Part shown: positions 25,472-40,961 of the stretch, one piece after another
How positions within the stretch are numbered: the stretch's first letter is position 1
How the letters are laid out: every line of letters begins with the position of its first letter
NCBI GenBank assembly: GCA_028277605.1
Contig: JANQFZ010000076.1
Span: forward strand, 1-64,000
DNA from: Vallitaleaceae bacterium
GTDB taxonomy: Bacteria > Bacillota > Clostridia > Lachnospirales > Vallitaleaceae
Length of the DNA stretch: 64,000 nt
Direction: 5' to 3'
Position numbers and translations under genes: made by a program
Notes under the pieces: generated by a model
Seen by the model: the letters and a program-made list of their open reading frames with translations, nothing else
Database searches by the model: none
What the model was told of the DNA's origin: nothing

Positions 25472-26428
25472 TTATTGTAATGGGTGATATCCTTGTAATG
25501 CAGCTTCTTTTTTAGATTGAAACACTTTTTCAACTACTGTATTGTTAGGCATTTTATCAGCTTCTACATAGTACTGGATGCCCTTTCCTGATGTATATCC
25601 AACATAGGTCTTACTTTTTAAAATAGATGCACCATTATAACAGAATAGATTTAAATATTGGTTGTTTGAAATGGGTTTTCCTTGAAATACAGCTATGATA
25701 CCTACATCTTGAATTGCATTATACCAGTCTGCTTTATCAATACGAGGTAACGTAAATTCATAAATTATCCCCAGATGGTGGCTAAAACGATTATGGTTAT
25801 TCACATGATAGCTCATACTCTCCTCAATCTGAGCTATCATACACTCTTTTTTCTCAATCATAAATTTAGAAGTATTTAGAAAAGGCGAAAGATGCCTTAA
25901 GTCCTTATAGTTTCCTTCATATTGCACTTTCTGATTTATATCATAAATTCTAACGGTATCATCTAATGTGAGGTTAATTATAGTACCATTATCGTCAACG
26001 ACTTGATAATAGCTTTTTGGGGAAAGCTGATGTTTTAGACAGGTATTATTATTATCATCCACATATTCTCTCATACTATATATATAATAACCGTCATAAT
26101 CTATAATAACCATGACTGGAATGTATGCTTTGACTCCTTCTTTCTCAGATTCTCCTATAGTTTTAAAGCTATAAAACAAGCTATTTAGAAAGGCTTGCAA
26201 ACCTTCTTCTGGCTTAATATTAATTGCTTTTAAATGAGCATATTCAAAAGAATGTGTATTAAAAATTTTTAGTGCTGTACAGCCATCCACTACAGCTGTT
26301 TTAATCATGTTTTCATAAAGGCATTGAATCTGCCTTGTTTTTAAATGAATATCTGATTGTACCTTATGAGTCATTAGGAAAGGAAGCATTGAAAATAAAA
26401 CCAATACACTATATTTAATGGTTCTCAT
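25472..26428 (-). CDS. Membrane-anchored pseudopilin-like protein, last gene of the Tad-like locus
   Basis: 318 residues with one N-terminal hydrophobic segment (about 6-20) followed by a long extracytoplasmic part. The C terminus (KGIQYYVEADKM, then VFQSKKEAALQGYHPLQ) resembles uncharacterised proteins of clostridial Flp-type loci. No catalytic motif seen. The frame is open 42 codons further upstream; the ATG at 26428 is preferred because GAGGAGGG precedes it and the hydrophobic segment follows directly. It overlaps the upstream gene by 14 bases, implying coupled expression. A role as minor pilin or tip protein is inference. Confidence 0.65.
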   Translation of the reverse strand: MRTIKYSVLVLFSMLPFLMTHKVQSDIHLKTRQIQCLYENMIKTAVVDGCTALKIFNTHSFEYAHLKAINIKPEEGLQAFLNSLFYSFKTIGESEKEGVKAYIPVMVIIDYDGYYIYSMREYVDDNNNTCLKHQLSPKSYYQVVDDNGTIINLTLDDTVRIYDINQKVQYEGNYKDLRHLSPFLNTSKFMIEKKECMIAQIEESMSYHVNNHNRFSHHLGIIYEFTLPRIDKADWYNAIQDVGIIAVFQGKPISNNQYLNLFCYNGASILKSKTYVGYTSGKGIQYYVEADKMPNNTVVEKVFQSKKEAALQGYHPLQ

Positions 26429-26936
26429 TTCGCACCATCCCTCCTCCTCGAACAAAAATTGTAGGATGTGTGGTTTGATTAACATATAAGTAATCTCTGA
26501 TAACTGCTGCTTTTGTTTTTCCTTGATTTTTAACCTCAATATAAACAAAATCACCTATATCCATAGAATAACTGCCCGAGCTGCTTAATACTTCTTCAAT
26601 ATTCTCTGTATAGGTGCCGTCATACACAATGGTATACTCCTCTAGGAATTGATGCGTTTTGTCATCATACACTGGTACATACTGCTTCTTATAATGTTCC
26701 AATTCAATCTGATATAGGTTGCCCGTTGCAGAGATTTTCTTTTTTAACTCATTGTACATGGTATCTGTCATATACCCTAAATCTCTAACAGAATCGATAA
26801 ATTTATGGGTTTCCGTATAAACCACGGAATAGGTTATATCATCTTGTCTTTCAAATGTATGCATAATAGGGATAACATAGAGTAAAATAACGACTAAAAG
26901 AATAGAGAAAATCTTCCAAATAGATTGATCCAACAT
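26415..26936 (-). CDS. Membrane-anchored pseudopilin-like protein
   Basis: 173 residues. One N-terminal hydrophobic helix (about 6-26) followed by a segment with FIDSVRDLGYMTDTMYNELKKKISATGNLYQIELEH, the layout of TadE-like or DUF4320-like minor pilins in clostridial loci; the rest is strand-rich. There is no prepilin peptidase motif (G-x4-E-Y/F). Gap of nine bases to the preceding gene, overlap with the following one. Function in the pilus-like machine is inferred from position. Confidence 0.65.
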   Translation of the reverse strand: MLDQSIWKIFSILLVVILLYVIPIMHTFERQDDITYSVVYTETHKFIDSVRDLGYMTDTMYNELKKKISATGNLYQIELEHYKKQYVPVYDDKTHQFLEEYTIVYDGTYTENIEEVLSSSGSYSMDIGDFVYIEVKNQGKTKAAVIRDYLYVNQTTHPTIFVRGGGMVRNENH

Positions 26937-26945
26937 CTATCTATA

Positions 26946-27344
26946 TTATTTTGGCAGATAGCGCATACCAATTAACTGACCATCAGTATTATATTGGCAG
27001 CTTACTATATAACAATCTTTAGGATGGATGAAGGATATATTTTCTTTTATTCTATCCTCACTCGTCATATGGTTGTTGTAAGTATACATTTGACCATCCA
27101 CCTCAATATTAACTTTATTCTCATCCCTATTCAATAGCTGTAAAATGACTTCTGAACCCAATATTTGATTCACTTGCACCCACTCACTTAATATAGTTAC
27201 ATTTTTTTGTTCACTCGTTCTGACTAAAGCAGTATTAAAATACCTTGTTAACTGATGCTGGTAACTAAAAAATAATGTAGCGGCACTTACTGAAATAAGC
27301 ATACCAACACCAATGTCTAAAAGTCTTTCCATGTGTTCGTACAT
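26946..27344 (-). CDS. Small pilin-like protein, paralogue of the 32014-32499 product
   Basis: 132 residues: an N-terminal hydrophobic helix (about 9-28) and a short globular domain. VNQILGSEVILQLLNRDENKVNIEVDG aligns by eye with VSGSDVVNAIKRYKSNSGELIICVDT of the pilin-like protein at 32014-32499 (shared V-x-G-S-D/E-V-V/I-x2-I/L followed by a strand), and both end soon after a final hydrophobic turn. AAGGAG precedes the ATG. No Flp prepilin motif. Confidence 0.65.
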   Translation of the reverse strand: MYEHMERLLDIGVGMLISVSAATLFFSYQHQLTRYFNTALVRTSEQKNVTILSEWVQVNQILGSEVILQLLNRDENKVNIEVDGQMYTYNNHMTSEDRIKENISFIHPKDCYIVSCQYNTDGQLIGMRYLPK

Positions 27345-27396
27345 TTTTTACTCCTTCTCTTTCTTATGATATCTGTCCCCGATATAGTTTTGTTAC

Positions 27397-30300
27397 TTAA
27401 CGACCTATCACATAATCTTCACTTGCCCTTTTATCTGTATAGTATAAGACAATGTCACCATAGGTCAGATGAAATCCATCCTGATTTATTTTAAAGCCTT
27501 CTCTTAACCATTGATTGGTATAAGAAGGATTGTTATAGGCTTGTACTGGGTTATTTAAGTCTGCATCTTGTATCCCTTCCAGTTTAAAGTTAACCATTAT
27601 ATACCCGTTATGTAGAAAGGGCGACTCATTGACATTGAGGTGTTTCATCGTTGTTAAATCAGTACCTTTAGGTACGGCTACTGTTGAGGATGGCAGATAG
27701 AACTCTCCATACCATTTTTGAACACTTTGAATCGCTTCTTCTTGTGTGATACTAGATGGTATATTAGCTGTGGAACCTATAAATGTTCTAACCGCTTCTG
27801 TTAGTAATACCCGACCGCCTTTTGCTATACTACGTTCCATACCGCTGAAGTACATCTGTTGATAGTCTTCTAAACTTTTATTTTCGTAGCTTCTATTTTG
27901 AGCATCTAATGCTTTTGCTGTATTCCATATTTCCTGCTTAGAAATATTTCTATAGGAATCATTGAGTATCATTGTTCTTGCTAGCTTATCGTACTGGCTG
28001 CCTATTTTTATCAGCTGACTACAGGATTCATAATATAGGTCAACCTCTTGGCGCTGTTTCCCAGTTAGAGACATATAGTAATACGTCGGAGTAATCAGTA
28101 TGCAGTCATATTTATCCATATAATCCCCATTGGTTATTAAATCAAAGCTTATTCTATAGCCTAGCTTTAATGCATAGCTCTCATACCCTTGGGTATCATT
28201 TTTATCTTCCATAATGGGTAAATGATACTGTCTTGTACTATCTATTTTTCCATTTCTATCCTTATCTCCTGAATAGAAGTACTTCCCTGTGTGTTCCGTA
28301 CTCTCTTCTTTTCTAAAAAATTTCTGCCAGTTCCAATCGGATATATCTGTTATTCTAAAGTCATATAATCTCCCTGTAACCTGTACGTCTATCTTTTCTA
28401 CCGCTTTATACTTATTAATGTCTAGATTGGCATGATACTCGTACTTTTGCTCATGCTCAGGTGTAAAGTTTAAAGGTATGGTTCTAAATAGAAGTGTATA
28501 AGTATCTTCTTTCACCCATGTTGGTATGTAGAAGATCATCTCGTCCAACCCGTCTGGAACGGTCATCCATGTATTCTTTTTCCCAAAAACACCTGTTCTG
28601 TCATGTCCTATATAGATGTCAAAAGGGAATTTAACTTGTCGTTTTTTGACATATGCCTCATAGTCTCTGAGTCCGTATCCTTTAATGCCTCTATGCTGCC
28701 CTTTTGTAGGATAATTAAGTATCATGGTATGACCTATTTGAAGTTGTATTGCATTTGTATTATGGTTAAGTGTCTGGGAATAATCCTGTTGATTTAAGAG
28801 TGTCGGTTTACAAATGACGGGTGTATGAATCGTGACTGGGTTAATACCTTTAATCGATTGTTGAATATTGGATTGAGCAGTATGGATACCTTTTATTAGC
28901 GAATAATGAATACTTCCTGTACTTGGAAGCTTATACTTATTAGGCTTGGTATGCTCTATAGGTATTTGTGCTGTATATAAGGTGTCATATGATAGTTCTG
29001 GTGGTTTTGGTAAAGCACTGGGGGCAGTTGTCCGAGTTGATACTAGTGAATCGTCTAGAATTATCGTATGATTAATGATACATTTATCATTTTTTACCTG
29101 TATTTCACTTATAGCTGCGTCAGCTTCATTCAACCAATTACTTGAAGGTATAGAAGGCTTACCCCTCTTACCACCGTTTAAGGTTGATGTTTTTAGAGTA
29201 ATCGTTCTATCATTTGGCTCAATCATGTGATCCGATGGCTTTGTGCTATGCCAAACATCTACCTCTGGTTGTGTGTAGTTCTTAGGTGCTAATACCATTT
29301 GATGGTTAGGTAAGGCTTCGTTTTGTATTACTGCTTTATCAAGACCAAAGATTTCTAACTGAGCTATCTCCCAATAAGCATACGTTCTAGGTATCGTATA
29401 AGTTTTCCTTATGGTTTTGGTATCCTTTTTATTCATCCATTTCTCTTCCCATTGACCTTCTTCGTTATAATCTCCTTTATCTTCTTTCCATTTAAGCTTG
29501 TACTTCTTACTAACGGTAACGGTGTAATATTTAGTCCCTGACTTTTGTACATAGGAAATGTTGGATAAGTATGATTTTGCATGAACTTGGATATAAACCT
29601 TTTCTCCAGTCGGTATCCCGTCTAAGGTATTAAATGCTTCATTTCCTCTTGGGTCAGCTTGGATAACGGCTGTTGCTTCGGCTGACATGTAACCGCTGGT
29701 TGACGAATTGGATTGGGAAATTTCGTCACTGGGCTTAAGATAAAAAGTATGCTCCTTTTCACGCGTTATTTTTTCGTGTTCCCCTGCGTGTATAATAAGT
29801 TTAAATTGAGTGGTTGGTTTCGTTGCTGTATAAGCTGCATGTTCGGTTGTGGCTATTGCTACATAACCTTGTCCTTCATCTGCAAACCATTCATAAGTAC
29901 AATGCTCTTCATCTATATGGTTGAGTTGGGATTTATTTTGAAGAGCTACAGCAACAGATGCATGTGGGGAAGCTGTAATAACTGGTTTATCATAATTATC
30001 TGTAACTTGATTACCTTGATGATAGATATCAAATTCTGCTACTGCATCTTGCTTAAGCTTCCTAGGAAGAATAATTGTAATATACCATTGCTCCATAATA
30101 CCATCACCATTACTATCCCAATCATGCCACATACGACCTACCCCATCACAAACAGTCGTTCGAGGCTGTAATACATGAACATAGGTATACCAGTTCTTAA
30201 CTTGTGTTTCATCAAATAGGTCTCCAAAACGGTCTTTTAAGGCTTGTCTGATGTAGGGTTCGTTTGATTCCTTGTAACTCCATTGATTAAATGTTCCTAA

Positions 30301-30672
30301 TTTATAGTTGGTAGGCATCTCTATCCACTTCCATTGATTAATAACAGTAGTTGCTGTATGATCATCAGGAAAATATTTATTAGGGATTTTATCATCATCT
30401 ATTGTATTGCCTATATATCTATGCTCATTTCTATTTGACTCATCTGAGAATTTTATATCACCTGAAACCTCTCCTTTAGCAAAAACACCATATTCAGTCC
30501 ATATATCATTTTTAAAATTAAAGAAAGAATAGTTATAGTAATTAAAGCCTAATTCATTATTTGCTTGGTCACAAGCCTGCTCTAATAAAACATACTCTTT
30601 ACCATAAGAATCTAAGCAATAATAATGCATACATAGCAAAATAAAGCTTATTATAATAATTTTAATCTTCAT
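27397..30672 (-). CDS. Large secreted surface protein with Ca-binding-like loops
   Basis: 1091 residues with a signal peptide (about 1-24). Early region YNYSFFNFKNDIWTEYG and FPDDHTATTVINQWKWIEMP recall clostridial proteins labelled DUF5704, a label I give with caution. Two EF-hand-like loops are visible: DWDSNGDGIMEQ (about 185) and GDKDRNGKIDS (about 800). The middle is Ig-like, strand-rich and Pro/Thr-rich; no wall-sorting motif is seen. It follows the SLH gene by 15 bases, so it may be a pilus-associated adhesin or be displayed through its neighbour. AAGGTGAG precedes the ATG. Confidence 0.7.
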   Translation of the reverse strand: MKIKIIIISFILLCMHYYCLDSYGKEYVLLEQACDQANNELGFNYYNYSFFNFKNDIWTEYGVFAKGEVSGDIKFSDESNRNEHRYIGNTIDDDKIPNKYFPDDHTATTVINQWKWIEMPTNYKLGTFNQWSYKESNEPYIRQALKDRFGDLFDETQVKNWYTYVHVLQPRTTVCDGVGRMWHDWDSNGDGIMEQWYITIILPRKLKQDAVAEFDIYHQGNQVTDNYDKPVITASPHASVAVALQNKSQLNHIDEEHCTYEWFADEGQGYVAIATTEHAAYTATKPTTQFKLIIHAGEHEKITREKEHTFYLKPSDEISQSNSSTSGYMSAEATAVIQADPRGNEAFNTLDGIPTGEKVYIQVHAKSYLSNISYVQKSGTKYYTVTVSKKYKLKWKEDKGDYNEEGQWEEKWMNKKDTKTIRKTYTIPRTYAYWEIAQLEIFGLDKAVIQNEALPNHQMVLAPKNYTQPEVDVWHSTKPSDHMIEPNDRTITLKTSTLNGGKRGKPSIPSSNWLNEADAAISEIQVKNDKCIINHTIILDDSLVSTRTTAPSALPKPPELSYDTLYTAQIPIEHTKPNKYKLPSTGSIHYSLIKGIHTAQSNIQQSIKGINPVTIHTPVICKPTLLNQQDYSQTLNHNTNAIQLQIGHTMILNYPTKGQHRGIKGYGLRDYEAYVKKRQVKFPFDIYIGHDRTGVFGKKNTWMTVPDGLDEMIFYIPTWVKEDTYTLLFRTIPLNFTPEHEQKYEYHANLDINKYKAVEKIDVQVTGRLYDFRITDISDWNWQKFFRKEESTEHTGKYFYSGDKDRNGKIDSTRQYHLPIMEDKNDTQGYESYALKLGYRISFDLITNGDYMDKYDCILITPTYYYMSLTGKQRQEVDLYYESCSQLIKIGSQYDKLARTMILNDSYRNISKQEIWNTAKALDAQNRSYENKSLEDYQQMYFSGMERSIAKGGRVLLTEAVRTFIGSTANIPSSITQEEAIQSVQKWYGEFYLPSSTVAVPKGTDLTTMKHLNVNESPFLHNGYIMVNFKLEGIQDADLNNPVQAYNNPSYTNQWLREGFKINQDGFHLTYGDIVLYYTDKRASEDYVIGR

Positions 30673-30687
30673 AGTATACTCACCTTA

Positions 30688-31698
30688 TTAATCTGATTTA
30701 TTTTTATACATTTCACTCCCATACCAAGAATTTATAGTTATAAAAGAACCTCTTTTTTTATTATTTTTGCCAGTTTGTTGATGCTCATAAATACATATTG
30801 AATCTCCTTCTATTAAATACCATTTTTCTTTTTGAGCTAGAATACTATAGAGTCCCTTTTTTTGTTTAATATATTCAATAACATCACAAATGTTTTGTTT
30901 AGAATATCTCTTTAATAATAAATCTTCAACATCTGATACTTGCAATTCTATAGGTTTAAAATAATCTATACAAATACTTAAGTCACAGTTATTAATCTTT
31001 TTAGTATCAACTATATCCAAATCACTATCAATCAACATTAAATCCTCTCTAAACGTCTCATCTACATTCAAAAATCGTTTTCTCTGATTTTTATCAATGA
31101 GTCTTCTTATTACGGCTGCGCCTTCTGCTCGTATCAAGCCGTTATTGGCTCTAAATGTACTATCTGGATAACCAGTAATGATACCTAGTCCATATATTTT
31201 GTAGACATCTTTTCTTAAGCTTTCAGGTATATCCAAGATATCTTCTAAGCATCTGCTGTAATTATTTAGATTCGCATAATGCTGCTCTCCCTCTATGACC
31301 CAAAGGGCTCTTTCAATGATGCGTGCCATTTCTCCTCTTGTGATGACTTTTGTATAACTGCTAAAATCCTCTTCTTTCACGTACCCCAATTCTTTTGCCT
31401 TCTGTATGTAAGATTCTGCCCAATTATCCCCCTGACTGATCGCTAAGTTGAAATGACTAGCGCGTATAACCATCGTAATGAACTCTTCTGCGGTTAACAA
31501 GAGATCGGGTCTAAAGGTTCCATCTGGATACCCATCAATAATTTGACGGCTATCAGCACTCAAAACATTGACATCTTCCATGAACCAGTCCTTTTCCTTG
31601 ACATCAGAGAACCTATTTCCAATTGCATAAGTATCACTAAGTTTTAAAAAAGATCCTATAAGAAATAGTACACCTATTAAAACAACTTGTTTTTTCAT
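30688..31698 (-). CDS. S-layer-homology (SLH) domain protein
   Basis: About 336 residues. Signal peptide (about 1-25), then SLH modules: FSDVKEKDWFMEDVNVLS with IIDGYPDGTFRPDLLLTAEEFITMVIRA, a second with WAESYIQKAKELGYV and ITRGEMARIIERAL, and a third with YGLGIITGYPDSTFRANNGLIRAEGAAVIRRLI. SLH modules bind pyruvylated secondary wall polymer, so the protein should be held at the cell wall. The last 110 residues are unrecognised. The frame is open to 31743; the ATG at 31698 directly precedes the signal peptide and has AAAGGAT upstream. Confidence 0.88.
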   Translation of the reverse strand: MKKQVVLIGVLFLIGSFLKLSDTYAIGNRFSDVKEKDWFMEDVNVLSADSRQIIDGYPDGTFRPDLLLTAEEFITMVIRASHFNLAISQGDNWAESYIQKAKELGYVKEEDFSSYTKVITRGEMARIIERALWVIEGEQHYANLNNYSRCLEDILDIPESLRKDVYKIYGLGIITGYPDSTFRANNGLIRAEGAAVIRRLIDKNQRKRFLNVDETFREDLMLIDSDLDIVDTKKINNCDLSICIDYFKPIELQVSDVEDLLLKRYSKQNICDVIEYIKQKKGLYSILAQKEKWYLIEGDSICIYEHQQTGKNNKKRGSFITINSWYGSEMYKNKSD

Positions 31699-31795
31699 TG
31701 AGCCCATCCTTTCTATTTGACTGTCTACTATATATTTATCCATTCTGTACTTAAAACTCGTTATTCTATTGATATTATTGTCTTAGAAGGGACAC

Positions 31796-31839
31796 ATGGG
31801 ACGGTTAATAGAAATGAAGAACCGCTCGTACCGTCCCAT
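31796..31839. repeat. REP-like palindrome
   Basis: ATGGGACGGT (31796-31805) and ACCGTCCCAT (31830-31839) are a perfect 10-bp inverted repeat around a 24-base loop that contains AACCGCTCG-type sequence. It is GC-rich compared with its surroundings and resembles GGGAC/GTCCC palindromes repeated in some Firmicute genomes. Confidence 0.5.
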
Positions 31840-31860
31840 ATCTATGTCCATTTGATATAT

Positions 31861-31953
31861 AAAAAGCCCACTAAATAATAACCGTTTATCTGCTATGTAT
31901 ACAAAATACTCTCCCTCATAAAGTAAATCATACATTTTTATAAAGCGGGCTAA
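31861..31953 (-). terminator. Possible terminator after the pilin-like gene
   Basis: On the minus strand AGCCCGCT (about 31951-31944) pairs with AGTGGGCT (about 31873-31866) with one G-U, and TTTTTAT follows. The loop is long, about 70 bases, so it may reduce rather than stop transcription. Confidence 0.4.
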
Positions 31954-32013
31954 TTATCTTAAAATAGGTTGAAAATATATTTATTCTACTGCTGTCAAAT
32001 CAAGTAGCCTACT

Positions 32014-32499
32014 TTACTGCTGAATAAAGGTCATCCCTCTAACGACCTCATTATCATCGTAAATAAGCTCGGAATAGAATTTGCCACTCTTATTAATATA
32101 TAAATTATCTGTTTTATCTTCTGATTTAGCTATATCATTATCAATAACCGCTTTAGTCTTAGTATTTAAAGTACCACTTAATGATGTGCCTGTCACAGAA
32201 CCACCACTGATGTATTGATAGGTAGCGGCTAGCTTGGTATCCACACAGATGATTAATTCACCACTATTACTTTTATATCTTTTGATAGCATTGACAACAT
32301 CGCTTCCCGAAACCGTTGTGTTATCAAAAGGTGAATACTCAGCCTCACTTAATGTCACACTGACATCCGTTAACTGCTTGCCTGCTTCATTAGCTAATCC
32401 CTTGCCTTGATTTAAGAGAAATAAACCGATACTAACCACGGTTATAAAAAAAAGTATCCCCACACCTAACCACAAGGCTTTTTGAATATTTTGATCCAT
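32014..32499 (-). CDS. Putative major pilin-like subunit of the Tad-like machine
   Basis: About 161 residues: a short charged start, one hydrophobic helix (about 8-28) and a small domain with VTLSEAEYSPFDNTTVSGSDVVNAIKRY, a Gly/Ser/Thr-rich middle and a C-terminal KFYSELIYDDNEVVRGMTFIQQ. Similar proteins lie beside TadA/B/C genes in other Clostridia. It lacks the Flp leader motif G-x4-E-Y, so standard prepilin processing is not expected. Position straight after TadB/C and before a possible terminator suggests the main filament subunit; that is inference. AAGGAG seven bases before the ATG sets the start; the frame is open to 32544. Confidence 0.68.
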   Translation of the reverse strand: MDQNIQKALWLGVGILFFITVVSIGLFLLNQGKGLANEAGKQLTDVSVTLSEAEYSPFDNTTVSGSDVVNAIKRYKSNSGELIICVDTKLAATYQYISGGSVTGTSLSGTLNTKTKAVIDNDIAKSEDKTDNLYINKSGKFYSELIYDDNEVVRGMTFIQQ

Positions 32500-32603
32500 A
32501 ATATCGCTCCTTATCTCGTGTACATTTATATTGACCCTCATCATTTTGCTCTATAAATTCAAATTAATGACACTTTAACATTATATGTTAGTATTCCTAC
32601 TCC

Positions 32604-34643
32604 CTATGATAATGATAGCTTTGAAAAATAGGTATTCATTTCATTAATACTGGTTATCAGCATTGGAAGCATTAAGTATACAAGCAAAAGTGCATATATA
32701 GGCAGAAAGCCAAAAGCTCTTCCAAGTCCTGTTTTCTTTTGGATAATTCTATTGTTGGTTTCTTTTCTCTGTTCCTGATAATAGTTTTTTTCACTTTCCA
32801 ATTCATCAAAGGCTTGCACTAAAGACAAGTCATTAGCTGCCATTTGAAGCTGCTCAATTATCTTTTGAAATCCCTTAAAAGAAACCACGTGTTTCAACTC
32901 TTCTAATGCTTCATCCATACCATAGGCTAGTGAATTGACACAGTTTTGAATCGGTTCTCGAAAGGTGAAGGAAAACCGTTCCATCCATTCTAAAAGCTCT
33001 TCAACTGAAATCCTCTGGTGATGCATCAGCATTAGAATGATGGCTTGAAAATGAGAAACTTCATCCTCCATATCCATCTTTCTTACCTCTTTTTGAAAGT
33101 GGATTGATAAAAAAGGCACTTGATAACCCACTATAAATACAATAAGACATAACAAAATTTCCCACCATCTAATATACTGATGATTCAGCTTTGAAAGTTT
33201 TTCTAAAATTCTATCCACACTAGCATCTGATAGATGATGTCTTCCCTCATGTGTCCTCATGTACTTTTGGAGTGCTATTAAGTCCGTGGCTCTTCCAACT
33301 TCTTTTATAATCTGCCTATCCTGCCTCGTTATGGCTTCAGCCTTTTCTGCTTCTTGACGAGATAGTTGACCTCCTAAAAAGCCATCAGGCATAGTGGGAC
33401 TAAATAAAACGTGATGGACAGCCATTCTATGCATCATTACTACGATGATAAAGGCTATGATAAAGCTAAATAATCCAAAAAGTAATCGGCGTGTATAAAA
33501 AACTTCTATTTTAAGCCTAGAGAAAGTCTTATTGAGCTTACTTTGAAACTTGGCTCTATCACTACATTTTCTTGGTAATAGAGGATCAATTATAAAATAA
33601 AACCGTTTATAAATTTTCTCTGAAATAGACTTTTTGTTAATGAGATACAGTGTTCTATCATCAAACTGCTGAATTTTTCTTATGGCAAAATAACAAACCC
33701 ATATAATCCCAAACATAGCTACTTCTAGCACAAATCCATAACTACTGTCATAAAAGGAACCTAATGGTAAGAAGTTCTTACCTGCCCAGCTCTTTATAGG
33801 GTTCATAAAAAACAGAGGAAGCAACACAATAATATTTAAACTTTTCAAAGCATAATTAAGTCTGTCTCTTTTAAAGACCTCTATTCTGAGAGCACTTGAT
33901 AAATCATTTAAATTTTTCATAAATACTGACACTCCATTGACATACGTATCGCCATATTCTAATGTCATGTAAGCTAATCCAGCAAGCATCTTGAGATACT
34001 TATTCGGTGCTGTATCGTAGTACTTTAAGATTTCTTTCTCAGCATCCTTTGCCGTCAGGGCATCATAGATTTTTTGACCTTGTATACCTATTTCATATTG
34101 GTCTTCTACCATTTGAGAAGCCTCATATAAAGCTTCATCAACCATCTTAGTTTCATAGTATTTATGTCTAACGGTATTATTAAAATGTATCTGCTGGTTT
34201 AATAACTTGTTTCTTATTCTCACCACAAAATAATCTATAATCGTTTCACCCAAAAACCATAGGGCTACGATAAAAATGACAATACTATAAAGCTGATTAG
34301 TCATAGCAATAAATAAAATAACGAGCAAACTTAAGACTATAAGTATTCTTAAATAAAGCTGTACAGCCTTTTTGCGTATAGCTGCCTCTCCATAGTTATG
34401 AAGCATTTCTAACCTTGAACGAATGTCATAAATATAGCGCTTAGTAATCCATGATCTGGATAGTACTCTATAGAGCTTTTGATAAATAATTTCTTGTTTT
34501 GAACGTGTTTGATCCTTAGTTTTTATAGCTTTAAAGCCTAACTTCTGACGCTTTTTAAGCATCATCATCAGCAACAAGAGAAATATCATGACTAGAATGG
34601 ATCCCGCCATAATTCCTATTAAAATTAATTGCCTATTATTCAC
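32604..34643 (-). CDS. Fused TadB-TadC-like inner membrane platform protein
   Basis: About 679 residues, twice the usual length, with two T2SSF-like halves. Each half has a cytoplasmic helical domain followed by hydrophobic segments: first half helices about 150-270, membrane about 100-140, 275-295 and 320-345; second half membrane about 390-410, 495-515 and 650-670, with the helical domain about 530-640 (EELLEWMERFSFTFREPIQN, LSLVQAFDELESEK). TadB and TadC, normally separate, form the platform on which the ATPase works. Start: GTG at 34643 nine bases after GGAG; a TTG at 34658 would overlap the ATPase gene. Confidence 0.75.
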   Translation of the reverse strand: MNNRQLILIGIMAGSILVMIFLLLLMMMLKKRQKLGFKAIKTKDQTRSKQEIIYQKLYRVLSRSWITKRYIYDIRSRLEMLHNYGEAAIRKKAVQLYLRILIVLSLLVILFIAMTNQLYSIVIFIVALWFLGETIIDYFVVRIRNKLLNQQIHFNNTVRHKYYETKMVDEALYEASQMVEDQYEIGIQGQKIYDALTAKDAEKEILKYYDTAPNKYLKMLAGLAYMTLEYGDTYVNGVSVFMKNLNDLSSALRIEVFKRDRLNYALKSLNIIVLLPLFFMNPIKSWAGKNFLPLGSFYDSSYGFVLEVAMFGIIWVCYFAIRKIQQFDDRTLYLINKKSISEKIYKRFYFIIDPLLPRKCSDRAKFQSKLNKTFSRLKIEVFYTRRLLFGLFSFIIAFIIVVMMHRMAVHHVLFSPTMPDGFLGGQLSRQEAEKAEAITRQDRQIIKEVGRATDLIALQKYMRTHEGRHHLSDASVDRILEKLSKLNHQYIRWWEILLCLIVFIVGYQVPFLSIHFQKEVRKMDMEDEVSHFQAIILMLMHHQRISVEELLEWMERFSFTFREPIQNCVNSLAYGMDEALEELKHVVSFKGFQKIIEQLQMAANDLSLVQAFDELESEKNYYQEQRKETNNRIIQKKTGLGRAFGFLPIYALLLVYLMLPMLITSINEMNTYFSKLSLS

Positions 34644-34648
34644 AAACC

Positions 34649-36502
34649 TCAACTCCAATATGTATCTATAAACGATTGAAAACTCTTTTTATCTTCCTCT
34701 GTCATATGCGCGTTCATCTGTGACATATTATGGTGGGATATTTTATGCTTAGCAACATATTGACCATTAACATACTCAAGTATATTATTGGCTACATACT
34801 GCTTACGATCAGTTCTTCTTCTATAATATTCAGTCGTTGTGTCCATAAAAAGGGCTTGTTTTTCATCTTTATCATGGGCTTCCTTATAGGTATTGGGATA
34901 TTCCATATCTTGATTCAGTGCAATTATTTCTGTGATTCTTTCTATATATCTTTTACCTGAATAATCTCTTGTTAAGTGAATATCAAAATTAAGAACTTGA
35001 ACCACCTGTTGTTCAGCAACCTTTTCATTATTAAAGACCTCACACTTTAAAAGAGAATTTCTTAAGGATAAGACTAAATCATGAACCGTTTTTGCATGGT
35101 GGGTAAAAACGGTGAATAAGCTCGCAACCTGAGCCATTTGTATCATCCAGGCAGCTACAGGATCTGTTGCCACCTCTCCTAAGATATTCACTGATCCATC
35201 CGTTTTTTTCTGTATATCCAGCCCCTGCTGACCTGAGATAGTGTCCGTTTCCTTAAAGGTGAGTATATTTCTCATAGGATAAACCTTTCTAAGATGCAGT
35301 TCGAAAGCCATTTCTTGCACCCTTAATGTCAAGGTGGCATAAATATGCCTTACAAATGCCATTAATAAGGTTGTCTTTCCAGAGCCTTGTGCTCCTGTAA
35401 CAGCAGTAACTCTACATCCTTTTGCTAAATAGGTAATCAGCTTTATGGGAAGCTCACTATTCTTATCTTTAATCAGTTGGTTCAATGTAACATGTTTGAT
35501 ATGAAACTTTCTAACAAAAAATGCCCAGCTTTCTGAGAAATTAGGTCTCACAACAACAACCCTGGAGCCATCCTTCATTTCATTCACTTTATATCCAACA
35601 TTTTCAGATAATTGCCCTGCTTTATTATAGCGATAGATATTTTGGCATATTCTTCTAAGCTCTTGAACTGAATCAAAGCTTAGGAAAGACAGATGTATGG
35701 ATTTACCCTTATAAAAAATCCAAACACTGTTATAACCACTAATTGTCTGTTGCCCCTCCCCTATACGTATTAAGTTTTTTGCATCTAAATCTCCAGAAAC
35801 GCCTCCAGAGACACCATCAATGTTCATGTCTCTTATCTCATCAATAACACCATACCCCTTATAGATTTGGTAAACCCTTTGAACAATAACATTAAGTTTA
35901 TCCTCATAGGATAATAAAAGACGTTCCTTTTTAAAAATGGTTTCTATTTCTTCTTCTGATATGATATAGGAAACCGTATGACCATCTTCTATCATGCACT
36001 TAAGCTGATCTAAATGATATACTTCTATGAGTTTTGTTAAACCATCATATCCATGGCGCTTTTTAAAGGTATATAGGAGAATATCAAATTTATCTCTTAC
36101 AGTTAATCGATTGTATTCATCAAATGGTATAACCTTATCAACACAACTGGCATTTAGGTAAGTGTCCTTTAGTAAATCTAAAATAAAATCTTTTACATAG
36201 GCTTTATCCTCAACGGAACCATAAAGGCAGTTTTTTAAGGCTTTTTTTAACTCACTTCTTTTATTTATTCTTCTTTGAAAGGTTTCACTATCAAGTCCAA
36301 GCTCATAAAGATTGGTTCTTGTCATTTCATTAATATAATCTCTAACATAGTTTACCAGTGAGTTAATTGTGAATTTTTCACTTGCAATAGTTTTTTTAAC
36401 CTTTCGTTCATTATGTCTGCCTCTTCTCATGTAATGAATAAGAAAGGCTAAACATAGGAGGATAATAGTTAAAATTAAAGCAGTGTTAAGCCAGTCTTTC
36501 AT
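34649..36502 (-). CDS. TadA/CpaF-type secretion ATPase with N-terminal membrane anchor
   Basis: 617 residues. The C-terminal half is a CpaF/VirB11-type ATPase: Walker A GAQGSGKTTLL (Lys about 376), an Asp/Glu-rich region RNILTFKETD, a Walker B-like NILGEVATDPVAAWM and THHAKTVHDLV in place of the usual THAN box. This is the only intact P-loop in the locus. Unusually a hydrophobic helix (about 6-26) and a basic stretch precede the cytosolic part. It powers filament assembly or secretion. The ATG at 36502 has AGGTGG five bases upstream; overlap with the preceding gene is 17 bases. Confidence 0.88.
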   Translation of the reverse strand: MKDWLNTALILTIILLCLAFLIHYMRRGRHNERKVKKTIASEKFTINSLVNYVRDYINEMTRTNLYELGLDSETFQRRINKRSELKKALKNCLYGSVEDKAYVKDFILDLLKDTYLNASCVDKVIPFDEYNRLTVRDKFDILLYTFKKRHGYDGLTKLIEVYHLDQLKCMIEDGHTVSYIISEEEIETIFKKERLLLSYEDKLNVIVQRVYQIYKGYGVIDEIRDMNIDGVSGGVSGDLDAKNLIRIGEGQQTISGYNSVWIFYKGKSIHLSFLSFDSVQELRRICQNIYRYNKAGQLSENVGYKVNEMKDGSRVVVVRPNFSESWAFFVRKFHIKHVTLNQLIKDKNSELPIKLITYLAKGCRVTAVTGAQGSGKTTLLMAFVRHIYATLTLRVQEMAFELHLRKVYPMRNILTFKETDTISGQQGLDIQKKTDGSVNILGEVATDPVAAWMIQMAQVASLFTVFTHHAKTVHDLVLSLRNSLLKCEVFNNEKVAEQQVVQVLNFDIHLTRDYSGKRYIERITEIIALNQDMEYPNTYKEAHDKDEKQALFMDTTTEYYRRRTDRKQYVANNILEYVNGQYVAKHKISHHNMSQMNAHMTEEDKKSFQSFIDTYWS

Positions 36503-37322
36503 AAGCACCACCTACTTTATTCAGCTGTTCCAACTCTTTTAGTAAAACTCTGGATGCCTCTCTTAAAGGATGAAAGAATGCATAATTAGGATCCGTTTTC
36601 CTTACATACATATTTCTTATAAAATAATCCACCACATTGCAATTGTTACAGCTGTTTTGAAACCCTATGTGATATGGTACAGTAATAACAGGATTAAATC
36701 GGTATTGCTTGATGGTATTTTTAATGCTCTGCTTAGACAGCTTGTTAAACATACCTAAACATACGACATGCTTTTTATCTTTAAAGAAGTCTTTGTATTC
36801 CTGTACTTCTAGGAAGTCATTGAGCACTGCCTTGTTTTGATTGAGACAGATAACTATCAGCTGTGAATGCTCTAGTAGTGTACGAGTCAACTGATGACTT
36901 AATCCACTGTGAACATCAATAGCTACCAGATCATAATATTGATTAGCATAATTAAAAATCTGCTGTAAAAGCTGGTGTTGTTCTTGCAGCTCACCTATAT
37001 TTTTCTGTGTTGTACCCATCATCATATCAAGTCTGCTCTTGCTTAATATAGGTGTTGTATAGTTGTGAATCATATCTGATGATAATCGACCATTTTTAGC
37101 TAAGCGTGTCAAGGCATCCATACCATGATCACTAAAGGTCAGCATGTTTTGCTGTTCATACTGTGCACCTGTAAGACTTCTTTCTAAGGTGCTTCTTGAA
37201 GCATGACTATGCCCAATTAAAATCTTATAGTCATGATGAAGGGCTATGGATAAGGTTAAGGCAATGGCATTGGATGTCGTTGCTGTTTGTCCATGAACGG
37301 TCGACCAAAAAGCAATCTGCAT
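36486..37322 (-). CDS. TadZ/CpaE-like protein with degenerate P-loop
   Basis: 278 residues, ParA/MinD-like in layout: IAFWSTVHGQTATTSNAIALTLSIAL at the position of the P-loop (no Lys), YDLVAIDVHSGLSHQ at the position of Walker B/switch II, and LIVICLNQNKAVLNDF. TadZ/CpaE proteins place the Tad machine in the cell. It overlaps the upstream gene by one base and tadA by 17. The C-terminal CNNCNVVDYFIRN contains a C-x2-C pair of unknown meaning. Confidence 0.72.
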   Translation of the reverse strand: MQIAFWSTVHGQTATTSNAIALTLSIALHHDYKILIGHSHASRSTLERSLTGAQYEQQNMLTFSDHGMDALTRLAKNGRLSSDMIHNYTTPILSKSRLDMMMGTTQKNIGELQEQHQLLQQIFNYANQYYDLVAIDVHSGLSHQLTRTLLEHSQLIVICLNQNKAVLNDFLEVQEYKDFFKDKKHVVCLGMFNKLSKQSIKNTIKQYRFNPVITVPYHIGFQNSCNNCNVVDYFIRNMYVRKTDPNYAFFHPLREASRVLLKELEQLNKVGGAYERLA

Positions 37323-37966
37323 TATACCCTACTCCTCTCTGCCTGCTTCATAACTTTTCTTATGGCTTTACTATCCATTAATGTAATATCGGTTAACAGA
37401 TGGTTTAAAATTTTTTTGTATCCTTTGGACAAATGCTTAATAGCTAAAGCGTTATCATATTCATTTTCCAAATGAACCACCTGATCATATTCTGTAAAAT
37501 ATAGGGTATATTTGAATTTGCTAACCGTCTCTAGCACTTGTTCAAAGTAAATATTAAGTACTTTTTCATTAATCTTGGAATCCGTATGTACATTTTGATA
37601 GAGTAATATCGTTTTTGTAGCTTTGGTCAGCTCAATTTGCTGAAACAGTTTTTGATTATCTATCATACGACTTTTATGGCTGTCCGTGATCAAGCAGACC
37701 CAATCACCATCATTGATTCTCAGTTCCTCTTGTTCACAATCCAATAGAACATAATCATAAGCATCTAACTCTAAACCCTGTGACTCTTTACTAGTATTAT
37801 ACAGGTCTAAGTTATGGCATAACTCATACGGATTGATAGATTCCTGCTGAACCTCATTACAGGTGATGAGTATGGTTTTTCCAATAAAACTAAGGCATTT
37901 ACCAACATATAGGATTAAAAAGCCTTTATCTCTATATTTCTTGCCAACAAACAAACATCGTTTCAT
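37322..37966 (-). CDS. Degenerate CpaE/MinD-like protein without P-loop
   Basis: About 214 residues. The order of strands and helices (GFLILYVGKCLSFIGKTILITCNEV, then LDAYDYVLLDCEQEELRINDGDWVCLITDS) follows the MinD/CpaE fold, but the P-loop is absent, replaced by KKYRDKGF. It probably binds no nucleotide or binds it differently. Start chosen at the ATG with GAGGGG six bases upstream (37966); the open frame extends to 38017 into the CpaB gene. The assignment to this superfamily is from overall pattern only. Confidence 0.6.
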   Translation of the reverse strand: MKRCLFVGKKYRDKGFLILYVGKCLSFIGKTILITCNEVQQESINPYELCHNLDLYNTSKESQGLELDAYDYVLLDCEQEELRINDGDWVCLITDSHKSRMIDNQKLFQQIELTKATKTILLYQNVHTDSKINEKVLNIYFEQVLETVSKFKYTLYFTEYDQVVHLENEYDNALAIKHLSKGYKKILNHLLTDITLMDSKAIRKVMKQAERSRV

Positions 37967-37976
37967 GAACATCCCC

Positions 37977-38906
37977 TCAAAATTCGAAAGCATCCTGCTC
38001 CTTTTTATTTTCTTCAATTAAACCGTTTTCTTGATTGACTCTTAGGCTAGATGCTTTTTTTTCTGGTGTTTCTTCATCGTGAAAGGCATATAAATGGTCT
38101 TCGAGTTCCTCTCTTTTTCTCAATTCCAAAGCTTCCTTAGATTGAAAAACAAGATTTGGATCCGCTAACATAAGTTCTAAAACCGCTTGGTTCACAGGAT
38201 AAGTCACTTGGGCTGCTGATTGTACTACTGCATCCACATACTGCAAGGCATACAGCTTCGTTCCCTCGTGTAAATAGGCATCTACACAGGCACTAGCTAT
38301 TCTTAAAATCTCTTCTTCGTTCAGCATCATCCAAAGTGTTTCTTTTATACTTCCATTGTCACTCTGCAAGCGTTCTATGGCTTCCACTCTTTTTTTGGTT
38401 AAAACAATATAGTCTTGACCGGTTGGAAACTTAATTCTTACATCAATAGCATCATTTTTTTCTAATAGAGAAGGCAGGAATAACAAACTCATCTCATAGC
38501 GTCTCAAATCATCACTAATAGACTCAAAATCGTGCAATATATCCTCCGTCACGGGTGTATTCGCCGCTAGATGGATTTTTAATGTTTTTCCTACTATATC
38601 CTCTAAAGCTTCAATGGTATTATTAGGCTTGATATCTTCGTTTAACCCCACTAATATGACATCTTCTTGTTTAAGCTGCTCTCCAGCTTTTATGTCTCTA
38701 CTTAATAAATAGACACTTTTTTCATTTTTATTGGCAGATTCAACTAAGGCATGAGAAGCATTTTCCAATTCGGCTACCTCTTGCTCTAGTTCTCGAATCT
38801 GATTGTGATCCAAGATAAAAATAATAACGGTTACAACTGACATTAACAAGGCACCTATTAAGCCAGAAGCTATTAGATTTTTTGTTCTCTGTCGGATAAT
38901 TGACAA
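37977..38906 (-). CDS. CpaB/RcpC-like SAF-domain pilus assembly protein
   Basis: 309 residues: membrane helix (about 12-31), a coiled coil (about 35-58, HNQIRELEQEVAELENASH), then a SAF domain (VYLLSRDIKAGEQLKQEDVILVGLNEDI through NTPVTEDIL, about 64-125), the mark of CpaB/RcpC proteins that sit at the outer side of the membrane in Tad systems. The C-terminal 150 residues are charged and helical. It lies between two CpaE-like genes, 11 bases from each. Confidence 0.82.
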   Translation of the reverse strand: MSIIRQRTKNLIASGLIGALLMSVVTVIIFILDHNQIRELEQEVAELENASHALVESANKNEKSVYLLSRDIKAGEQLKQEDVILVGLNEDIKPNNTIEALEDIVGKTLKIHLAANTPVTEDILHDFESISDDLRRYEMSLLFLPSLLEKNDAIDVRIKFPTGQDYIVLTKKRVEAIERLQSDNGSIKETLWMMLNEEEILRIASACVDAYLHEGTKLYALQYVDAVVQSAAQVTYPVNQAVLELMLADPNLVFQSKEALELRKREELEDHLYAFHDEETPEKKASSLRVNQENGLIEENKKEQDAFEF

Positions 38907-38917
38907 TACTCTCTCCC

Positions 38918-39550
38918 CTAACTATTTAATATGGTTGACAACTGTAGTGACGTATCTGGGTGTAAGATAAAAGGATCGGGGTGAAAGGGTATCAGATATA
39001 CTTTTTTGTTAAGATGTTTATTCAATTCCTTTACCTCCTGCTTGTTTGAAAAAAGAATACAAAACATCCATTTTGAAGCATTTGATTCGTTTTTGTGATG
39101 GTTCCAAAAATCAATTAGTTCCTCTCTTTTCCATTCAATAGCATGCCCGATGACTATTGATCTATCCGAACGTAAAAATTCATCAAAATATGGAGACTCA
39201 CAACTACCAATATCCATAATGACGTAATCATAGGACTTGGATAGAATGTTTAACAAATGGATAGACTCATGATGCTTATAATAATGAACCCCCTTCATAT
39301 GGAAATCACGATCCTCTAATGTCAGATGACTCCCTTCATAAGCCCTTTGTATCGATTGAAAAGCACCTGTAGAATTCAGCTCTACCAAAGCAGTTTTTTG
39401 TTTGAGCTGGTTTAGATACTGAGCAAATAGAAGACTTGTATGGGTCACTCCAATCCCGCTGTTGACACCAATAATACCAATAGTTATCGTTTTATGAATG
39501 GTATGGATGGTTTTTCTTTTACCTAGTAACATGGGTTTTCTTTTCATCAC
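38918..39550 (-). CDS. CpaE-like protein with altered Walker A (GxxxGxGVTHT)
   Basis: 210 residues. TIGIIGVNSGIGVTHTSLLFAQYL occupies the P-loop position but the deviant Walker A lysine (GGxGKT) is replaced by Val-Thr-His; SYDYVIMDIGSCESPYFDEF is the Walker B/switch region and SIVIGHAIEWKREEL follows. Soluble. It overlaps the kinase-fusion gene by 33 bases, which implies coupling, and resembles that protein's C-terminal domain (both have G-x-T-H-T), so the two may be paralogues that pair. Confidence 0.75.
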   Translation of the reverse strand: MMKRKPMLLGKRKTIHTIHKTITIGIIGVNSGIGVTHTSLLFAQYLNQLKQKTALVELNSTGAFQSIQRAYEGSHLTLEDRDFHMKGVHYYKHHESIHLLNILSKSYDYVIMDIGSCESPYFDEFLRSDRSIVIGHAIEWKREELIDFWNHHKNESNASKWMFCILFSNKQEVKELNKHLNKKVYLIPFHPDPFILHPDTSLQLSTILNS

Positions 39551-40961
39551 TTCTTCTCCTAAACCATCTTTTCTTCTTTTGCTGCTTTTTTGGCAGATAG
39601 GACTTAATTAACTCATTAAATTTAACATTCGCTGCTTTGCTGGGTTGATAAGGATTAGGGGAATAAGGTAATACGAAACAGTTGAATCCTTTCATATTTT
39701 TTCTAATGTGCTTTATGTTCTCTTCATCCATGAATGAAAAACAGTATTTAAAAGACTTTGCACTTCTACAGCTCAATAGAAAATTATCTAACATCGGTAT
39801 TTCCCAATCCTTGCCACCACATACCACTAACTTTACATGACATTTCGCTATTAAGTCTTCGGTCGTCTCTACATTAAACCCTCCTAAATCCAATATAACA
39901 TAATCCAAGTGTCCAGTTAAAAGCTCTGTTAGATCCCGATTTTCTTGGTACAGATAGAAGGCTATATTTCTTAAAATAAACTGTTCACCTAAATCGTTAC
40001 TATCGTAATACATATTTTTGATGTGCGTAAAATCATTAGAGTTAGTAAAATCAACGATTGCTGCCTTATACCCTTTATCTGTTAATAGGCTCCCTAGCGT
40101 CAACACGGTATGGGTTGTTCCAATACGAGGCATTAATCCCATAACCCCTATTAAAACAGTTCCAATTATTTCGGATTTATGAGTGTTTGGTTGATGTATC
40201 ATACCTAACTGCTTTTTGAAAGCTAATGCTTCTTGAAATCTATCTGCTGGAAGTAAACTGGTAGCTGTCATGAGGCACTCATTCAGTTGATTAGAATAAG
40301 ATTTGATTTCATTGTTAATGGGCAGTATTTTATATGGGGGATCCGATAAGGTTTTCCCAGTTGCCAAGTAGTAAAGCGTCAGACCTACACCATAGATATC
40401 TGAGCGTTCATCACTCTGGGCTCCACCATACTGTTCAGGTGCCGCAAACCCCCTTGACCCAATCTGCATGGTATCGGAGTGTGCTTGATACTTATACTCC
40501 CTAGATATGCCAAAATCAATAAGTTTAATGCATCCATTCTCCATTAGAATAATATTATCCGGCTTCATATCTCGATAAATGATAGGATAGGGCTTTCTGG
40601 TATGTAGGTAATGCAATATCTCACACAGTTCTCCGCCCCACTGAACAATGTCTGTCTCATTCACATGGATATGCTTTTCTTTATACTCCCTTAGATTTAT
40701 GCCTTCAACATATTCCTCAATGATATAAATGTTATCTGCATCTTCTTCTATATCAATAATTTTAGGTATGGCTGGATGATTCAGCTCTTTTAAAATCTTT
40801 GGTTCAGCTAAAAAATTTAGCTCACTTTGACTCTTATGGATAACCTTAATCGCCCATTTTGATCTAAGTTTAATATTCTCTGCTAAATAAACAACACTCG
40901 TTCCTCCTCTTCCAATGGGCTTGAGAATTCTATACTTACCAAATAGTATTGTCCCTAGCAT
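39519..40961 (-). CDS. Ser/Thr protein kinase fused to a CpaE-like domain
   Basis: 480 residues, first gene of the Tad-like operon. Residues 1-262 are a complete Hanks-type kinase: GRGGTSVVY glycine loop, Lys39, Glu53, YRDMKPDN catalytic loop (Asp131, Asn136), DFG at 149-151, APEQY at 174. Residues about 266-440 are CpaE/MinD-like: GLMPRIGTTHTVLTLG in place of a P-loop, LDYVILDLGGFNVETTE and VVCGGKDWEI. A very basic tail (KKQQKKKRWFRRR) ends it. No PASTA, FHA or membrane segment. Phosphorylation control of machine assembly or placement is the obvious inference. GGAGGGG precedes the ATG. Confidence 0.85.
   Translation of the reverse strand: MLGTILFGKYRILKPIGRGGTSVVYLAENIKLRSKWAIKVIHKSQSELNFLAEPKILKELNHPAIPKIIDIEEDADNIYIIEEYVEGINLREYKEKHIHVNETDIVQWGGELCEILHYLHTRKPYPIIYRDMKPDNIILMENGCIKLIDFGISREYKYQAHSDTMQIGSRGFAAPEQYGGAQSDERSDIYGVGLTLYYLATGKTLSDPPYKILPINNEIKSYSNQLNECLMTATSLLPADRFQEALAFKKQLGMIHQPNTHKSEIIGTVLIGVMGLMPRIGTTHTVLTLGSLLTDKGYKAAIVDFTNSNDFTHIKNMYYDSNDLGEQFILRNIAFYLYQENRDLTELLTGHLDYVILDLGGFNVETTEDLIAKCHVKLVVCGGKDWEIPMLDNFLLSCRSAKSFKYCFSFMDEENIKHIRKNMKGFNCFVLPYSPNPYQPSKAANVKFNELIKSYLPKKQQKKKRWFRRRSDEKKTHVTR

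Follow-up and report, generated by a model that had tools for sequence, protein, structure and literature searches.

The 64,000-nucleotide stretch analysed here (the window) covers positions 1 to 64,000 of contig JANQFZ010000076.1 from a Vallitaleaceae bacterium. A chromosomal locus of 13 open reading frames (ORFs) related to Tad/Flp pilus genes was found on its minus strand at 25472–40961. The best explanation of this locus, which we favour with some reservation, is a Tad-derived membrane machine with leaderless pilin-like subunits, the likely task of which is to contact surfaces or other cells across a thick wall. Among possible forms of such a machine, a wall-anchored, phospho-regulated pseudopilus for surface or cell contact is the most likely. 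The system would work like the base of a Tad pilus and lacks two defining Tad features, namely class III prepilins and an in-locus TadV. In our judgement it belongs with the Tad/type IV filaments as a variant. No description of this divergent-Tad family as such was found in the literature searched, from which most subscription journals were excluded.

Most of the 13 ORFs overlap or nearly abut, and the only real intergenic gap lies at 31744–32013, which confirms the tightly packed, single-strand gene set described in the earlier note. The motor ATPase (34649–36511) has a Walker A motif (GAQGSGKTTLL) and the motifs GEVATDP and HHA. Its match to Pfam T2SSE was weak (0.0029, below cut-off). The profile of its family had CpaF as the best solved relative (E = 4.6e-16) and also matched the canonical TadA encoded in this genome (4e-15). 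In the tree, the divergent TadA formed a clade separate from the type IV pilus ATPases and from two other TadA proteins of its genome, the canonical one and one on contig C66; long branches leave its exact placement unsure. The CpaB-like membrane protein (37977–38906) has the SAF domain (1e-07) expected of CpaB/RcpC.

The remaining base proteins matched known families poorly. The CpaE-like proteins of the locus showed weak TadZ/CpaE matches. E1 (37322–37966; the start of the 231-aa ORF was corrected to about 37966) is a pseudo-ATPase that lacks Walker A in the family alignment, and E2 (36486–37322) has a degenerate P-loop, HGQTATTSN (AAA_31 0.0035 and alignment). An extra small CpaE-like protein (38918–39550; weak TIGR03815 CpaE match, 0.005) occurred in three other loci, all from close relatives. 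The long membrane protein at 32604–34658 follows TadA in 78 of the 80 loci described below and is taken as the platform, a fused TadB-TadC. Its N-terminal half is weakly TadB-like, and the rest of the proposed fusion rests on size and position, the C-terminal half having no match. Pfam gave no meaningful match for 25 members of the platform family, and Pfam and NCBIfam returned nothing usable for the platform, the pilins, pp173, E1 or E2.

Four genes encode pilin-like subunits. The candidate major pilin (32014–32499, 161 aa, MDQNIQKALW...) starts at 32499, shortly after the Shine-Dalgarno sequence AAGGAG, and with this start an apparent extra N-terminus drops out. The others are a 132-aa protein (26946–27344) with relatives in most loci, the 173-aa pseudopilin-like pp173 (26415–26936), and the large pseudopilin-like pp360 (25472–26428), the 360-aa ORF of which most likely starts at 26428 and so encodes 318 aa. 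A simple scan found no class III prepilin signal, and no Flp, TadE or TadF bearing one, in the window, in a second copy on contig C15 of the same genome, or in 79 related loci. The same scan found its controls, which were both TadE genes and the Flp-like ORF of this genome and one minor pilin of a type IV pilus. None of the small ORFs in the gaps of the locus was Flp-like. Profile comparison showed no similarity of the pilins to the control Flp-like ORF, or of pp173 to TadE.

The subunits start in a conserved way. In a set of 183 preceded by a good ribosome-binding site, 118 have Glu at position 2, 133 have Asn at position 3, and 110 have Lys at position 6. The consensus is M-[E/D]-N-A-x-K, and a hydrophobic helix follows at once. 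AlphaFold2 with the family alignment predicted a helix (residues 2–58) plus an alpha/beta head for the candidate pilin (predicted local distance difference test, pLDDT, 91), and a helix (2–52) plus a beta-rich head for pp360 (pLDDT 89). The subunits thus resemble type IV pilins in layout, an analogy of form drawn from architecture, size and position. Labelling as pilin-like relied on the hydrophobic N-terminus and may have pooled distinct subunit types. The pp360 model weakly resembled a double-Cache domain (TlpA, Z 4.2, 134 residues, root-mean-square deviation 3.5), a likeness to which we give no weight. NCBI names the candidate pilins of this family 'ABC transporter permease' (L129:18951-19424, L132:16884-17342, L134:16908-17390; L numbers are our locus labels); this name is evidently wrong and hides the family.

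A search of 146 genomes from the same order gave matches to the divergent TadA in 21, three of them weak. From a scan of GTDB genomes, 80 named further loci were kept, all in Bacillota, with carriers including Clostridia, Paenibacillus, Tumebacillus, Anaerocolumna and Alkaliphilus; 25 Bacillota plasmids also carried this TadA. The order CpaB-E1-E2-TadA-platform-pp173-pp360 was kept in 68 of the 80 loci and on all nine large plasmids examined. The loci were labelled by iterated profiles, and contig ends and 10-kb flanks cut many of them, so the counts among the 80 are lower bounds: TadA 80, platform 78, E2 78, CpaB 74, E1 73, pilin-like 73, pp173 66, pp360 53, a kinase- or other-CpaE fusion 21, S-layer homology (SLH) protein 13, and DUF5704 protein 5. 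This recurrence of the gene order is more than chance, and the monoderm-specific, regulated apparatus proposed earlier is supported as a co-conserved, regulated, Tad-derived system restricted to Bacillota in these searches. The C15 copy comprises a CpaE fusion without a kinase, CpaB, E1, E2, TadA, the platform and several pilin-like genes, and no DUF5704 gene. Its TadA shares 40% identity with that of the window, which is about 60–64% identical to the TadA of Tumebacillus and some Clostridia. The greater distance of the window TadA to its own paralogue suggests that the system has spread horizontally.

The first gene of the locus (39519–40961) encodes a fusion of a Hanks-type Ser/Thr kinase (Pfam Pkinase PF00069, 1.8e-44) with a CpaE/TadZ-like domain, as had been claimed from the sequence. 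The kinase retains the motifs YRDMKPDN (YRDxKPxN) and DFG, and its nearest solved relatives are StkP/PknB. The CpaE-like part has a degenerate P-loop (GLMPRIGTTHT). The kinase motif was present in 16 other loci, and Pfam identified kinases in two further loci (L059 and L071). In the C15 and plasmid copies, this CpaE-like body is preceded by a different N-terminal region of unrecognised type. The canonical CpaE encoded in this genome carries a TadZ receiver domain (TadZ-like_ARD) at the kinase position. The simplest reading is that the N-terminal region is a swapped input domain. A predicted HAD-type phosphatase gene was observed upstream on the same strand in 20 clostridial loci from metagenome-assembled genomes (MAGs) (L044:5547-6422 and 19 others).

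Taken together, these genes suggest the following mechanism for the preferred machine. The TadA/CpaF-like ATPase and the one-piece platform would raise a short filament, a pseudopilus or pilus, of pilin-like subunits. These subunits would be made already 'mature', without a class III leader, so that no prepilin peptidase step would be needed. CpaB and the CpaE-like proteins would organise the base, and the kinase, at the position of the receiver domain in canonical CpaE/TadZ, would probably use phosphorylation to switch or place the machine. The cell-wall and surface end would be formed by the SLH and DUF5704 proteins, and the likely task would be contact with a surface or another cell across the thick wall.

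Candidate partner machines lie near the system in several genomes. The C15 copy adjoins a type VII secretion system (T7SS) cluster of the T7SSi type (L122:5974-12393, G000:C15). This cluster encodes a 1522-aa EssC-type ATPase (FtsK_SpoIIIE 3e-60), a response regulator of the LytTR kind, an 82-aa protein that in size would suit the ubiquitin-like component, a 283-aa protein and an SLH protein. It resembles the T7SSi that Garrett, Higginson and Palmer 2024 (PMC11217815) describe, in the parts of that paper available, as known only from Vallitalea and not as Tad-linked. EssC lay within 20 kb of the divergent TadA in 7 of 16 genomes with an EssC match. With four genomes known in advance left out, it did so in 4 of the remaining 12, where 0.17 would be expected (P about 1.6e-5), for a crude null of random placement and with related genomes that are not independent. 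On plasmids, genes for type IV coupling proteins (T4CP) and/or Replic_Relax genes were near the system in seven of the nine examined. The recurrence beside two kinds of transfer machinery may point to a device that makes contact by penetrating the cell wall. We tentatively suggest, as a possible though rather doubtful extension, a wall-crossing contact filament of leaderless pilins that serves as a shared docking module, paired with T7SS in chromosomal clusters or with conjugation on large plasmids. Neither T7SS nor conjugation genes were found beside the window copy within the stretch examined; the window locus lacks the EssC/TsxC and WXG100 genes of a T7SS, with EssC absent and WXG100 not searched genome-wide.

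The surface end of the locus bears on another reading. The SLH protein (30688–31743; SLH 1.2e-18), a candidate wall anchor, has relatives downstream of pp360 in other loci. The 1091-aa secreted DUF5704 protein (27397–30672; DUF5704 8.4e-52, Athe_2463 domain 1.7e-10), a candidate tip or wall adhesin, is single-copy in the genome; no relative of solved structure and no paper naming DUF5704 was found. On seven of the nine plasmids examined, the genes downstream of the system include one for a DUF5704 protein, which adjoins or lies close to a gene for an SLH or stalk-domain protein; the two genes are adjacent in most plasmid copies. On three plasmids, a Cu_amine_oxidN1 'stalk' protein replaces SLH at the same position, a swap that argues for a surface-anchoring role of the SLH gene. 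Monoderms need no secretin, and none was present anywhere in the genome. The earlier note was therefore right that an RcpA-type secretin is lacking; its proposal that SLH anchoring replaces an outer-membrane channel is not needed, and its anchoring part is supported by the stalk swap. In Anaerocolumna, the place taken by SLH and DUF5704 in the window is occupied by a secreted protein of 1561–1728 aa, encoded inside the run of pilin genes (L100:14834-19519, with Ig-like domains; L109:15284-20470; L110:14745-19865). A Tad-like secretion system or pseudopilus without a surface filament, acting as a short piston that exports DUF5704, SLH or other proteins, would fit the co-encoded surface proteins and the T7SS clusters adjoining several copies. 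We consider it unlikely, because the SLH and DUF5704 proteins begin with apparent ordinary Sec signals and would need no special export, and because the number of subunit genes varies from one to six per locus with no clear substrate gene.

The genome encodes four A24 peptidases, all outside the locus. They were found in a type IV pilus cluster on C77, between two TadE-type genes on C28, in the C66 cluster with another TadA and a SAF-type protein, and alone on C84. The earlier statement that TadV is missing thus holds for the locus and does not extend to the genome. By context, the TadV of this cell would belong to its canonical Tad genes, and the absent class III signal is a stronger point than the absent TadV gene. 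The canonical TadA on C79 lies with TadB-like, TadC-like, CpaE and FHA-like genes and the 57-aa Flp-like ORF. The canonical genes are apparently split over C79 and C28 (L014:4890-9782 and L012:9013-14621), the C28 part carrying the TadE-type genes, the A24 peptidase and a 1168-aa protein. The C66 set (L015, G000:C66:28000-46000) groups TadA, the SAF-type protein and A24; it is possibly a mobile element and may be of the 'No Flp_2' type of Imam 2011.

A24 was represented in the 80 related loci by one short ORF in a single locus (L090), and none was found on the nine plasmids, the hosts of which probably have one. Some A24 peptidase was present in all 16 relatives and in 45 of 47 other carrier genomes, the two without being G172 and G177 (MAG loci L076 and L087). 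The idea that carriers lack every A24 peptidase was dropped as uninformative. These peptidases would fit an ordinary Tad pilus with a merely divergent signal, in which an enzyme from outside the locus processes the pilins in trans. MSH loci are likewise without a prepilin peptidase of their own and may use one from elsewhere (Denise 2019, PMC6668835). Such a pilus is improbable here given the complete absence of class III motifs from 79 loci with working controls and the conserved start, which leaves no leader for cutting.

Several observations weigh against the leaderless contact machine that we prefer. Because nearly all carriers have an A24 peptidase, processing in trans through an unrecognised motif could still occur. 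The TadC half of the platform is undetectable by sequence. Comparison of the two subunit models with solved structures (Foldseek, VIA-align) retrieved a scatter of low-scoring matches and no type IV pilin, and positive-inside charges favour an N-in topology only weakly.

We consider it very improbable that these genes form a conjugative transfer apparatus, in spite of the T4CP and Replic_Relax genes near the system on plasmids, because VirB4-like genes elsewhere on several carrier plasmids provide an ATPase of their own, domain search of the 13 chromosomal window genes found no VirB4, T4CP or relaxase, and C15 and other copies lie beside T7SS instead.

With the Tad/Flp (type IVc) pilus, the system shares a TadA/CpaF motor, CpaB and small single-helix subunits, together with CpaE-like proteins and a platform that match their Tad counterparts weakly at best. 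It differs in lacking class III Flp/TadE/TadF, in-locus TadV and a secretin, and in having one long platform protein and a TadA in a separate clade. Like the 'No Flp_2' tad-like loci (Imam 2011, PMC3244431), it has no prepilin signal; unlike them, it has no tadV, and its tadA is divergent where theirs is conserved. 'Tad pilus' genes adjoin T7SSg/h in Paenibacillus and Acetivibrio, and the available parts of that report (PMC11217815) treat them as a Tad pilus set and do not mention missing prepilin signals, a kinase fusion or DUF5704. The divergent loci L047 and L089 likewise have an EssC-type ATPase upstream, and L097 has a homologue. The Myxococcus Kil system, as far as the parts seen describe it, combines a Tad-like machine with another secretion-type complex for contact-dependent killing (PMC8460266, PMC12075869); Kil differs in its diderm host and its identified major pilin, KilP. 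The earlier interpretation was upheld in part, and the second copy, the T7SS and plasmid associations and the T7SSg/h literature are additions to it. The flanks of the window locus are a 2-oxoacid:ferredoxin oxidoreductase operon and purA, both named from sequence.

To our knowledge, every type IV filament is regarded as depending on prepilin processing. If no subunit of this family carries the signal, the family would be a natural test of which assembly parts (the leader, the free N-terminus or Glu5) are essential. The pairing with T7SS and conjugative-type plasmids offers a testable idea of how a Gram-positive cell may reach a neighbour through its thick wall.

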